A stretch of DNA of 64,000 bases. It comes from Cryobacterium sinapicolor. Lineage in GTDB: Bacteria; Actinomycetota; Actinomycetes; Actinomycetales; Microbacteriaceae. The notes under the pieces were generated by a model that searched no databases, was not told the DNA's origin, and saw only the letters and a program-made list of their open reading frames with translations. Location: positions 1 through 64,000 of the forward strand of contig NZ_SOGQ01000061.1 of the NCBI RefSeq assembly GCF_004403465.1. Direction: 5' to 3'. A program made the translations under genes and the position numbers. Position 1 is the first letter of the stretch, and each line of letters starts with the position of its first letter. Positions 28,874 to 41,971 of this stretch are shown piece after piece.

Positions 28874-29914
28874 ATGTCGTTTTCGACCCTCTTCGACGCG
28901 CCTGCGGTCGAGCCGCCAACGATCGACCCGGCGAACCCGGACTCGTCCCCGCGCCGCTCCCTGGCAGCACGTCCTTCGGTCTCGGATTCGGTGTTCCGTT
29001 CGGTGGCCTTCCTTGCCGGCTGCATCACCGTGGCGATCATGCTCGCCGTGGGCGTGTTCCTGTCGTTGCGGGCCTCGGAGGCCCTCGGGGTCGCCGGCTT
29101 CAGCTTCCTGGTCGAGCAGGACTGGTCACCGGAGTCGCAGAAATTCGGTATCGCATCCGTCCTGTTCGGCACCATCACGATCGCGGTGATCGCGATGTGC
29201 GTCGCCGTGCCGCTCGCCCTCGGCACGGCCCTGCTCATCTCCGAGGTCGCCCAGGGCCGGATGCGCTCTACGCTCGTCACGCTCGTCGACCTGATGGCCG
29301 CCGTGCCAAGTGTGGTCTTCGGCCTCTGGGGTGTCTTCTTCCTGCAGGCCAACGTGATCCCGGTCGCCACCTGGATCTCCACCTACTTCGGCTGGATCCC
29401 GTTCTTCCGGGTCGAGGACATCACCGGCCAGACCCTGACCGAGGCGAGCGCCTTCACCTCCTCGGCGTTCATCGCCGGCATCGTGGTGGGCCTCATGGTG
29501 GTGCCCACCCAGACCTCGGTGATGCGCGAGGCCTTCTCCCAGGCTCCGATCGGCGAACGCGAGGCCGCGTTCGCCCTCGGGTCGACGCGGTGGGGCATGA
29601 TCCGTGCGGTCGTGCTGCCCTTCGGTCGCGGCGGCATCATCGGCGGCACCATGCTCGGCCTCGGCCGAGCCCTCGGTGAGACCATCGCCGTCTACATGAT
29701 CATTTCCCCGATCTTCACAATCAACTGGGAGGTGCTGAAGACGGGCACCAACTCCGTCTCCGCACTCATCGCCCTCCGCTACGGCGAGTCCAGCTCGTTC
29801 GGCCTCTCCGCGCTGATGGCAGCCGGGCTTGTCCTGTTCCTGATCACCCTCGTGATCAACTTCACGGCCTCGTCGATCGTGGCACGGTCCCGATCCGGGG
29901 CAGAGAGCGACTGA
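28874..29914 (+). CDS. pstC: Phosphate ABC transporter permease PstC
   Basis: A 346-residue permease with about six membrane segments. PstC signatures are AAVPSVVFGLWG, the EAA loop EAAFALGSTRWGMIRAVVLP and GRALGETIAV. With PstA it forms the membrane channel for phosphate driven by PstB. The N-terminal 35 residues are a Pro/Ser-rich cytoplasmic lead. Its TGA overlaps the pstA ATG by one base, so the two are coupled. Confidence 0.95.
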   Translation: MSFSTLFDAPAVEPPTIDPANPDSSPRRSLAARPSVSDSVFRSVAFLAGCITVAIMLAVGVFLSLRASEALGVAGFSFLVEQDWSPESQKFGIASVLFGTITIAVIAMCVAVPLALGTALLISEVAQGRMRSTLVTLVDLMAAVPSVVFGLWGVFFLQANVIPVATWISTYFGWIPFFRVEDITGQTLTEASAFTSSAFIAGIVVGLMVVPTQTSVMREAFSQAPIGEREAAFALGSTRWGMIRAVVLPFGRGGIIGGTMLGLGRALGETIAVYMIISPIFTINWEVLKTGTNSVSALIALRYGESSSFGLSALMAAGLVLFLITLVINFTASSIVARSRSGAESD

Positions 29915-31239
29915 TGACGATCCTCCTCGAACCCACCGGAACGGTCATCCCCGAACTGACACCGACGGCCCCGGCGCACACCACGACGATCCCGTCCCCC
30001 GGGGGCACCCCGATCGGCCCGCGCCGCCGGGTGCGCGGCGCCCGCCTCGACGACCGGTTCAATCTGCTCGGCGCCGCCTCTGCAGGCATCGCCGTCGCTG
30101 TGCTGCTGTTCGGTTGGTTCAGCCCGCTCTCCGGCGGCGTCGGCTGGCTGCTCGTGGCCTTCATCGCCTTCATCGGCTTCTACGCCCTGCTGGTGAGCTT
30201 CGCCAGCGACTGGCAGGAGGTCAAGGACCGGGTGATGGGGGTGTTGCTCGCCAGCGCCGGGGTGCTGCTGTTCGGAGCCCTGGTCTTCGTGGTGGCGTTT
30301 ACGCTGGTGCGCGGCCAGGAGGCCCTGCCGCACCTGAACTTCTTCACGCAGAGCATGGAGCTCGCCGGCCCGCTGGACGGCCTCGAGGTCGGCGGAATCG
30401 TGCACGCGATCCTGGGCACGCTGATGCAGATCTCGATGGCCCTCGCCATCACGATTCCGCTCGGAATCCTGACGGCGCTCTTCCTCAACGAGGTCGGCGG
30501 CAAGTTCGCCCGCTTCGTGCGCACGATTTCGGATGCGATGACGGCCCTGCCCTCCATCGTCGCTGGACTCTTCGTCTATTCCGCGATCATCGTGTTGATC
30601 ACCCATCAGCGCTCGGGCTTCGCCGCGGCGATGGCCATCACCGTCATGATGCTGCCCATCGTCATCCGGGCCTCCGACATTGTGCTGCGGCTTGTGCCCG
30701 GCAACCTGCGCGAGGCTGCCTACGCCCTCGGGTCGACCCGGTGGCGCACGGTGTGGCACGTCGTTCTGCCGACGGCCCGGCCCGGTCTGGCCACGGCCGT
30801 GATCCTCGGCACGGCTCGCGGAATCGGCGAGACCAGTCCGGTGCTGCTCACATCCGGGGTGACCGCCGTCGTCAACTGGAACCCGTTCGAGGGTCCGATG
30901 ATCTCCCTTCCGCTGCAGGTCTTCGACTTCGTCAAATCCCCCGAGCCGAACATGATCGCCCGCGGCTTCGGCTCCGCTGCCGTGTTGATCCTGCTGGTGC
31001 TCGCACTCTTCGTGATCGCCCGTCTGATCGGGGGTAAGGGTCCCGGCCAGCTGGGCCGCCGGCAGCAGGAGCGGGTCATTGCGGCATCCGCTCTCGACCT
31101 TCAGCGCATCACCCTTCAGGGCGACCGCCGAGTCCTGCTCGACGCCTCGGCCGCGCAGGACGACCACCGGCCACAGCCATCGGCTTCTACGCCATCAGCT
31201 CCACCGTCAGACCCCAACCCGAAGGAGACGTCCTCGTGA
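29914..31239 (+). CDS. pstA: Phosphate ABC transporter permease PstA
   Basis: A 441-residue permease, longer than the usual ~290-residue PstA. The core has TISDAMTALPSIVAGLFVYS, the EAA loop EAAYALGSTRWRTVWHVVLP and GTARGIGETSPVLL. The extra length is an N-terminal Pro/Thr-rich stretch with two additional membrane segments (about 50-85) and a ~50-residue Ser/Pro-rich C-terminal tail. Its TGA overlaps the GTG of the next gene (GTGA). Confidence 0.94.
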   Translation: MTILLEPTGTVIPELTPTAPAHTTTIPSPGGTPIGPRRRVRGARLDDRFNLLGAASAGIAVAVLLFGWFSPLSGGVGWLLVAFIAFIGFYALLVSFASDWQEVKDRVMGVLLASAGVLLFGALVFVVAFTLVRGQEALPHLNFFTQSMELAGPLDGLEVGGIVHAILGTLMQISMALAITIPLGILTALFLNEVGGKFARFVRTISDAMTALPSIVAGLFVYSAIIVLITHQRSGFAAAMAITVMMLPIVIRASDIVLRLVPGNLREAAYALGSTRWRTVWHVVLPTARPGLATAVILGTARGIGETSPVLLTSGVTAVVNWNPFEGPMISLPLQVFDFVKSPEPNMIARGFGSAAVLILLVLALFVIARLIGGKGPGQLGRRQQERVIAASALDLQRITLQGDRRVLLDASAAQDDHRPQPSASTPSAPPSDPNPKETSS

Positions 31240-40938: not shown

Positions 40939-40957
40939 CAACCCGAAACGAGTGGTT

Positions 40958-41971
40958 ATGAACGAGAACGTGCACGACGACGAGTTGACGCAGGTGCTTC
41001 CGGCTGTGCCGCTCTTTACCGCAACGACGCCACCCCCTCGGTCGGGGCAGCGCGACCGGAAGCTGCGCCTGCCTGCCCGGTCGGTGTCGAACCGGCGCGG
41101 CCGTTTGGGCGCATCGGGCTCGCCGTGGGCACAACGCCCGGCTGGCCCGGATCTGGTCATCGACGCGCCCTCGCATCAACCGAGCGCGCGCGCACCTCTC
41201 GCCACGCTCGAGGGCCGCAACGTTTCGGCCTGGTTCGGCGAGCGTCAGGTTCTCGACCGGGTCAACCTCGTGATGCCCGCGGGCGTCATCACCTCGCTGA
41301 TCGGGCCGTCGGGTTGCGGGAAGTCGACGTTCCTGCGCATCCTGAACCGGATGCACGAGCTCGTTCCCTCGGCGAGCCTCGCCGGCCAGGTATTGCTCGA
41401 GGGCGAAGACATCTACGACCCGGAACGCAAGCTCGTCGACGCTCGCAAACACATCGGGATGGTCTTCCAGAAGCCCAATCCCTTCCCCGCCATGTCGATC
41501 TACGACAACGTGATCGCGGGCCTCACTCTCACCGGCAAGCGTGCGTCGAACGACGAGAAGGACTACCTCGTCGAGAGCTGCCTGACCAAGGCAGGCCTGT
41601 GGAAGGAGGTCCGGGACCGTCTGCGCGCCCCGGGTGGCGGGCTGTCCGGCGGCCAGCAGCAGCGACTGTGCATCGCCCGATCCCTGGCGGTGACTCCACG
41701 CATCCTGCTGATGGACGAACCGTGCTCGGCCCTTGACCCCACATCGACGCGGGTGATCGAGGAGACCATGCTCGAACTCGCCCGAGAGGTGACCATCGTG
41801 ATCGTGACCCACAACATGCAGCAGGCGCAGCGCGTCTCGCAGAACTGCGCCTTCTTCCTCGCAGCGCAGGGTGCGCCCGGCGGGATCGTGGAACACGGCC
41901 CGACTGACGCCATGTTCGGCAACCCGATCGACCTGCGCACGGCGGACTACGTCAACGGCCGGTTCGGGTAG
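40958..41971 (+). CDS. pstB: Phosphate ABC transporter ATP-binding protein PstB
   Basis: A 337-residue importer ATPase. Walker A GPSGCGKST (116-124), Q-loop in MVFQKPNPFPAMSIYDNV, signature LSGGQQQR, Walker B LLMDEPCSALD and switch His in VTHNMQQA, all as in PstB. An 82-residue basic, Pro/Arg-rich N-terminal extension precedes the ABC domain; ordinary PstB has none. The ATG at 40958 is the first plausible start after the sortase-like gene; an internal start near 41190 would give a normal-length protein. No phoU is next to it. Confidence 0.93.
   Translation: MNENVHDDELTQVLPAVPLFTATTPPPRSGQRDRKLRLPARSVSNRRGRLGASGSPWAQRPAGPDLVIDAPSHQPSARAPLATLEGRNVSAWFGERQVLDRVNLVMPAGVITSLIGPSGCGKSTFLRILNRMHELVPSASLAGQVLLEGEDIYDPERKLVDARKHIGMVFQKPNPFPAMSIYDNVIAGLTLTGKRASNDEKDYLVESCLTKAGLWKEVRDRLRAPGGGLSGGQQQRLCIARSLAVTPRILLMDEPCSALDPTSTRVIEETMLELAREVTIVIVTHNMQQAQRVSQNCAFFLAAQGAPGGIVEHGPTDAMFGNPIDLRTADYVNGRFG

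Follow-up and report, generated by a model that had tools for sequence, protein, structure and literature searches.

A Pst-type phosphate transport locus of Cryobacterium sinapicolor with a putative WxL/DUF916 wall-anchoring pair and a pseudo-sortase

The stretch of DNA analysed here (the window, 64,000 nucleotides) covers positions 1 to 64,000 of contig NZ_SOGQ01000061.1 from Cryobacterium sinapicolor (assembly GCF_004403465.1). Between positions 28874 and 41971 it carries a phosphate transport (pst) cassette of ten open genes, all on the + strand, in the order pstC, pstA, pstS, a gene for a protein of 858 amino acids (aa), a free binding protein, a WxL-type protein, a DUF916 protein, an immunoglobulin-like (Ig) protein, a sortase-fold protein and pstB. 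In profile scans, six genes for exported or membrane proteins separate pstS from pstB. Starts and stops overlap at pstC/pstA (29914), pstA/pstS (31236-31239), pstS/858 gene (32882-32885) and Ig/sortase-fold gene (39898-39901). A first-pass annotation, made from the letters of this DNA, had given the same gene set, order and overlapping stops and starts, and these were correct. The features of the cassette are as follows.

28874..29914, + strand: pstC, permease of a phosphate ATP-binding cassette (ABC) transporter (TIGR02138, 5.9e-72, over the cut-off)
29914..31239, + strand: pstA, phosphate ABC permease, overlapping pstC (TIGR00974, 6.5e-63, over the cut-off)
31236..32885, + strand: PstS with a signal peptide and, at its C-terminus, a transmembrane anchor (TIGR00975, 3.8e-66, over the cut-off; hydropathy)
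32882..35458, + strand: 858-aa exported protein with C-terminal membrane anchor and PstS-like C-terminal part (TIGR00975; hydropathy)
35561..36703, + strand: secreted binding-protein-like protein without membrane anchor (TIGR02136; hydropathy)
36771..37835, + strand: WxL-type protein with N-terminal payload domain (about residues 29-182) and C-terminal divergent WxL domain (206-354) (profiles)
37386..37832, + strand: the C-terminal divergent WxL domain itself (residues 206-354; profile), in whose place three Cryobacterium genomes have a LASTG signal
37943..39037, + strand: DUF916/WxLIP-type protein with PGBD domain (58-164), second Ig-like domain and C-terminal transmembrane helix (PF06030; hydropathy)
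39062..39901, + strand: Ig protein, paralogue of the second domain plus transmembrane helix of the DUF916 protein, without peptidoglycan-binding domain (hhalign)
39898..40938, + strand: pseudo-sortase ending in LLPNLL, its fold flanked by predicted transmembrane segments (PF04203, 1.9e-12; hydropathy)
40958..41971, + strand: pstB, ATPase of the phosphate ABC transporter, extended at the N-terminus by about 80 residues (TIGR00972, 2.2e-97 on residues 84-337, below the cut-off)

An alignment search of genome contigs with the 858-aa protein returned 315 relatives, and the best 80 of the 315 were used as loci. Loci L030-L037 were chosen for a DUF916 match (in L033, a DUF916-like Ig gene), and L038-L043, with DUF916 in other contexts, stand outside the resulting 89 loci. 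As L033 and L090 are one record, 88 loci are distinct. Because loci were picked by DUF916 match or as the best 80 of 315, the conservation figures do not describe an unbiased sample. With the profiles built here, all ten genes were found in 62 of the 89 loci, and both strand and order were kept in 62/62. Complete cassettes occurred mainly in Microbacteriaceae, together with some Propionibacteriaceae-type genomes, and incomplete loci were mostly contig ends or else of the Streptomyces/Planotetraspora type. Since all ten genes recur together in the same order in 62 loci, their clustering is not due to chance, and the locus is a conserved system. This supports the proposal that the surface genes are part of the pst operon, and the contrary outcome named by the first-pass annotation, absence of the set beside pstCAB in relatives, did not occur.

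The six Streptomyces/Planotetraspora loci consist of pstC-pstA-pstS-858-free protein-pseudo-sortase, with pstB in five (none in the locus of L140), and no WxL, DUF916 or Ig match was found in these six. Judged from gene content, WxL and DUF916 are not part of the predicted cassette core: Streptomyces-type loci are without them and three Cryobacterium genomes have replaced them. Within the genus, 57 genomes were searched. The 858 gene is present in 21, and in 18 of these PF06030 was matched at E<=0.001 no more than about 4 kb away, with a score above the curated cut-off in 17; the three genomes without such a match are those with the replacement. In genome G045, the 858-aa gene (L058) has one in-frame TGA. 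An actinobacterial cassette was also seen on a contig labelled Stenotrophomonas maltophilia (L137), which is probably a contaminant.

The transporter core was readily recognised. PstC, PstA and PstS passed their NCBIfam equivalog cut-offs (242 vs 196, 212 vs 193 and 223 vs 205 bits, respectively), while PstB reached 325 bits against a cut-off of 343, with PstB still its best-matching family. PstS matched the solved phosphate-binding PstS 8ods in the PDB (6.2e-38), and 84 of 89 entries retain its RSDGSG loop. The PstS N-terminus has no Cys that could form a lipobox; a membrane-anchored PstS, as suggested earlier, agrees with the equivalog match and with the C-terminal transmembrane helix predicted from hydropathy. 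PstS also bears a conserved juxtamembrane motif of the PFTLxxxGW type, and the PstS of the window ends in LADTG, a transmembrane segment and a positive tail. PstS was considered as a sortase substrate, and this was rejected: a strict LPxTG-like motif occurs in 5 of 83 full PstS proteins, and a looser pattern, L[APSTV]xx[GNSA][WFMLYV], in 58 of 83. With a strict sorting motif in so few, the stretch was treated as a juxtamembrane motif and not as an anchor signal.

The other two binding-like proteins resemble PstS more remotely. In the 858-aa protein, the likeness to PstS is confined to a stretch near the C-terminus (residues 635-753, TIGR00975 E 2.6e-7); TIGR00975 was matched by 53/54 members of its family, and a PDB search gave Mycobacterium PstS1 7dm1 (3e-7, over about 110 residues). 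The free protein is weakly PstS-like (TIGR02136, E about 7e-4 to 8e-4; 17 of 48 members match, the best at 2e-7). It matched the solved phosphate-binding protein 4gd5 at 1.2e-4 and keeps GSDT and SGT motifs as invariant columns. For both proteins, the PDB and NCBIfam profile matches are better, though modest, evidence than hhalign. So the binding-protein character that had been assigned to them stands as a likeness to PstS, but a remote one.

The DUF916 protein is over the PF06030 (PGBD) cut-off (36.2 vs 27.3 bits), in agreement with its first assignment, and PF06030 was matched at E<=0.01 by 33 of 34 members of its family. Its second domain is another Ig-like domain, followed by a C-terminal transmembrane hydropathy peak at 303-330; the 34 members matched 15 families at E<=0.01, and DUF3324 was none of them. 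The Ig protein aligned to columns 191-329 of the DUF916-protein profile with an hhalign probability of 99.7 %, so the relationship seen earlier between the two is that of second-domain paralogues. A PDB profile search gave no solved structure for the WxL profile and no convincing one for DUF916 (best E 0.3).

As for the WxL protein, its first motif, D-x-R...W-x-L, is kept in 75 of 79 WxL-type proteins, and the Pfam WxL family was matched at E<=0.01 by 2 of 43 members (best 9e-4). The C-terminal WxL profile found WxL-like domains in L160, L042, L038, L040, L039 and L161 (E 2.6e-18 to 7e-14), and a single iteration brought in two small proteins of L043 (2.4e-5 and 1.1e-3); one of these has a Pfam WxL match that stays under the cut-off (17.4 vs 25 bits). 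A weak profile chain and the first W-x-L motif thereby appear to tie the cassette protein to PF13731. In the consulted portion of PMC9772566, the WxL domain is defined by two W-x-L motifs; with only one of them, the cassette protein is a divergent WxL relative and not a standard member. The WxL domain occurs with DUF916 in 73 of 75 entries, the other two (L117 and L131) ending within the cassette. WxL/DUF916 pairs are also present at L038, L039, L042, L160 and L161. A second WxL-type gene follows DUF916 at L030:8704-9612, and L067, L074, L076 and L134 have second WxL matches in the same place.

For the N-terminal payload domain, searched in the window protein and in the protein of L033, Pfam gave nothing above the cut-offs applied, sub-threshold matches aside. 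Its profile matched 75 of the 88 pst loci by default search, and L034 and L036 as well with filters off, while no match was found in 12 non-pst loci searched. Fusion of the payload to the Streptomyces free protein was looked for and not found; the three such proteins scanned bear Ig-like Big_3_5 repeats instead. Three genomes, those of Cryobacterium sp. M96, C. cheniae and C. shii, have the WxL domain replaced: their payload leads into a Pro/Thr linker and a LASTG-hydrophobic-Arg sortase signal. A Pfam search found no DUF916 in the whole genomes of this clade (G024, G046 and G059). In the tree, the trio is one clade nested within WxL+DUF916 loci, with a Shimodaira-Hasegawa-like approximate likelihood-ratio (SH-aLRT) support of 100; L090, L096, L109, L113 and L137 are omitted from this tree, and its longest branches are unsure. 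By tree path, the nearest relatives of the 858-aa protein of the window are from Cryobacterium. The exchange of WxL for LASTG is, on this tree, a derived state. In a Leucobacter metagenome-assembled genome (MAG) the payload comes with Ig-like repeats, and both WxL and DUF916 were undetected. Outside the swap genomes, no conserved LPxTG-like signal was found in the cassette proteins.

WxL and DUF916 are jointly present in 73 entries and jointly absent from four (three genomes). The WxL domain and DUF916 thus vary as a pair, and covalent anchoring by a sortase signal can stand in for them, which suggests that the pair probably acts here as the wall anchor of the payload. This is the strongest functional inference of our analysis, and it bears out the idea of WxL/DUF916 as a wall-anchoring module. 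A DUF916 protein has been proposed to bind both peptidoglycan and WxL, according to the excerpt of PMC10599100 at hand.

WxL/DUF916 was also seen with other cargo. At L042:6237-10653, a HupE/UreJ-type protein and a purple acid phosphatase with a fused C-terminal WxL-like domain lie with a DUF916 gene. The genome with this fusion also carries one of the pst cassettes, which counts in favour of the importer reading given below. At L039:9572-12256, an HtaA domain protein ends in a WxL-like domain, and a DUF916 gene adjoins it. In the same genus as the window, L043:6060-11183 combines ice-binding repeats and a C-terminal stretch of WxL type, scoring under the Pfam cut-off, with DUF916 and two small WxL-type proteins. 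On Cellulosimicrobium and Clavibacter plasmids (L160:4070-5912 and L161:4110-5924), a small WxL-like gene and DUF916 lie near GH43 glycosidases, and the pairing occurs with glycosidases at L040 and with an iron-type ABC system at L038.

The sortase-fold protein exceeded the PF04203 cut-off (47.5 vs 26.6 bits, covering only profile positions 1-85 of 125) and matched the solved sortase 4d70 at 4e-12. The sortase fold first noticed was therefore real, but the catalytic residues of a sortase are lost. In an alignment of 79 homologues (the first site missing in L076, both sites in L128), the column of the catalytic His is Arg in 77/77 homologues covering both sites. In sortase enzymes, this His stands in a GHR motif. 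Similarly, the region of the TLxTC cysteine has no Cys in 78/78 covering sequences and reads mostly TAR, or TAD, TAT, TSR, TGD and similar. Cys occurs somewhere in the counted stretch of 8 of 79 reading frames, with none in the active-site region. The host genome has three other sortase genes, two of which were recovered by the profile search; L157, another sortase of the same genome, retains AAHR and TSC. Hydropathy predicts one membrane helix before the domain and two after it. The ratio of non-synonymous to synonymous substitution rates (dN/dS) of the pseudo-sortase was 0.04-0.19 in six close pairs, which indicates purifying selection. We conclude from these residues and ratios that the protein is probably a non-catalytic membrane subunit.

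The feature extends upstream of 28874, with a transglycosylase-type gene followed by a PASTA kinase gene.

26052..26855, + strand: lytic transglycosylase-type (SLT_2) protein of the flanking module (open reading frame and profile; the same-genus homologue L031:2180-2992 matches Pfam SLT_2)
26864..28705, + strand: membrane Ser/Thr protein kinase of the flanking module with two PASTA domains (Pkinase 9.1e-30; PASTA 2e-19, two stretches)

A PASTA kinase adjoins pstC or pstB in 64 of the 88 distinct loci, by pstC in 58 and downstream of pstB in six (the divergent Cryobacterium copies L035-L037, plus L089, L111 and L121). A transglycosylase-type gene lies within 5 kb in 32 of these 64 loci, and L071 has a short kinase remnant. 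The switch of side between lineages argues against mere synteny. When both flanks had to be long enough (60 of the 88 loci taken, 28 left out), the kinase was found at 50/53 WxL+DUF916 loci versus 0/7 loci without WxL/DUF916. As the swap clade represents one event, its kinase loss counts as one observation.

Taken together, the cassette is, in our estimate by somewhat more than an even chance, a second, cell-wall-integrated Pst-type phosphate ABC importer, and phosphate is its likely substrate on the profile matches. PstCAB would be the pump, and PstS the phosphate-binding subunit, tethered to the membrane by its C-terminal helix and not by lipid. The space between membrane and wall would hold the larger tethered receptor of 858 aa and the soluble binding-like protein, while the payload would be fixed in the peptidoglycan through its WxL domain, held by the DUF916 (WxLIP-type) protein. 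The catalytically dead sortase may serve as a membrane docking subunit beside PstCA; perhaps it holds the juxtamembrane motif of PstS, which in the few strict cases still reads as a full LPxTG-like signal. The neighbouring PASTA kinase might make the system responsive to the condition of the wall. The importer could catch phosphate, or a compound that bears it, in the wall, raise its concentration at PstS and possibly hand the substrate over directly, with all parts presumably assembled as one complex. A bolder version, possible but doubtful, would see in the cassette an ABC importer of a new, wall-embedded type in monoderm bacteria, with three graded receptors, a peptidoglycan-fixed payload, a docking pseudo-sortase and a kinase tying uptake to wall growth.

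Several observations weigh against a wall-integrated phosphate importer. The WxL protein of the window scores below the Pfam PF13731 cut-off (14.3 vs 25 bits), and for the second W-x-L motif no W was found in the last 14 residues of 79/79 proteins (four swapped tails included). The WxL-like identity proposed at first therefore holds for the first motif, the C-terminal position and the DUF916 partner, but not for the Pfam score or the second motif; more generally, the expected profile relatedness was found for DUF916 and the sortase fold, and is weak for WxL and the two extra binding proteins. Against the PstS profile, hhalign gave weak values of 5.5 and 5.7 % for the 858-aa and free proteins. 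The module is dispensable, as three Cryobacterium genomes are without WxL domain, DUF916 and local kinase; 36 of the 57 genus genomes have no 858 gene, and three WxL loci with enough flank (L097, L115 and L130) have no kinase. Selection was not equally strict throughout: dN/dS reached 1.07 for the WxL gene in the pair L036/L037, where changes are very few, and for the 858 gene two close pairs gave 0.50-0.61. At the PstS position corresponding to Asp56 of E. coli, the 89 entries have Glu in 67 and Asp only in six of Streptomyces type, with 16 unmatched (a looser pattern gives Glu in 10 of these; five are truncated). The host genome has an ordinary pstS-C-A-B elsewhere, so the cassette is a second copy. 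Finally, no PHO-box-like direct repeat was found in 78/78 upstream regions; the canonical pst region is also without the pattern, so this absence is uninformative.

The second copy bears directly on the cargo. As the host already has an ordinary pstSCAB, the second system may serve another substrate, and the Glu outside the Streptomyces type and the unassigned ligands of the two extra binding-like proteins point the same way. A cargo other than orthophosphate, either another oxyanion or a phosphorylated organic or polymeric compound, nevertheless appears rather unlikely, because PstS, PstC and PstA are over phosphate-specific equivalog cut-offs and the RSDGSG loop is so widely kept. We likewise consider it unlikely, and slightly more so, that WxL, DUF916 and Ig form an adhesion or display module which sits in the operon only for co-expression and has no part in phosphate uptake. 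In Actinobacteria, WxL+DUF916 does stand beside HtaA, glycosidases, ice-binding repeats and an iron-type ABC system, and the module is replaceable by LASTG and undetected in Streptomyces-type loci. However, the payload is found in most pst loci and was met in none of the 12 non-pst loci searched, it is retained in the LASTG-anchored and Leucobacter forms, and its position and order are fixed in every complete locus.

The flanking kinase raises another question, namely whether the cassette is mainly a sensor, whose binding proteins report wall phosphate or phosphopolymers via the pseudo-sortase to the PASTA kinase, with transport secondary. The frequency of the kinase on either side by lineage, its absence along with WxL/DUF916 in the swap clade, the remnant in L071 and the other pst in the host would all suit such a sensor. 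Yet the cassette has a complete, conserved PstCAB, the core stands without an adjoining kinase in four Streptomyces-type loci whose flanks are long enough, and the three swap genomes retain the transporter core without a local kinase, so that we hold a sensor improbable. Mis-assembly or chance clustering as the source of the gene order has almost no probability left: although some loci are on short draft contigs or MAGs, the same order is present on near-complete chromosomes (G023, G004 and G005) as well as in all complete loci, and conservation refutes it.

Monoderm bacteria lack an outer membrane that would enclose a periplasm, and to our knowledge little is known of how nutrients are held in or channelled through their thick wall. 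The operon points to an importer that has its own apparatus for anchoring in the wall, and would bring WxL/DUF916 into nutrient uptake in environmental Actinobacteria. The swap of a WxL domain for a sortase signal constitutes a natural experiment, and the conserved dead sortase is probably an accessory of the transporter. Its parts are of small size and lend themselves to tests in genera that can be cultured, Cryobacterium, Leifsonia and Microbacterium among them. Among the titles and abstract openings searched, with few subscription journals covered, neither WxL/DUF916 in a pst operon nor such a pseudo-sortase was described. Published work, so far as these extracts go, treats WxL/DUF916 proteins as surface and colonisation factors of Firmicutes.

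In the part of PMC12537917 (2025) used here, Ang-2 genes have metallophosphatases and DUF916 as neighbours. These neighbourhoods fit L041 and L042, which likewise have DUF916 near metallophosphatases and PF13795 proteins; that part concerns metal-binding Ang domains and does not mention the pst cassette. Class E sortases share the sortase fold with the cassette protein and are its best NCBIfam match, yet at 51.9 bits against a cut-off of 160; unlike them, it is without the catalytic His and Cys and has extra C-terminal membrane helices. Compared with the WxL/Csc clusters of Firmicutes (CscA-D; WxL plus WxLIP), the cassette has the same C-terminal WxL-type domain with D-x-R...W-x-L and, as a gene pair, a DUF916 partner with a second Ig-like domain and transmembrane helix. 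In contrast to those clusters, it has no second tryptophan in the last 14 residues of the WxL protein, no DUF3324 match and no CscD-type LPxTG protein, has mostly one WxL protein instead of a small/large pair, and lies inside a pst operon. With PstSCAB, the cassette shares homologues of PstS, PstC, PstA and PstB and the RSDGSG loop of PstS. It differs from PstSCAB in its order C-A-S-...-B, in a helix-tethered PstS without lipobox Cys, in the six surface and membrane genes between PstS and PstB, and in being a second copy in the genome.

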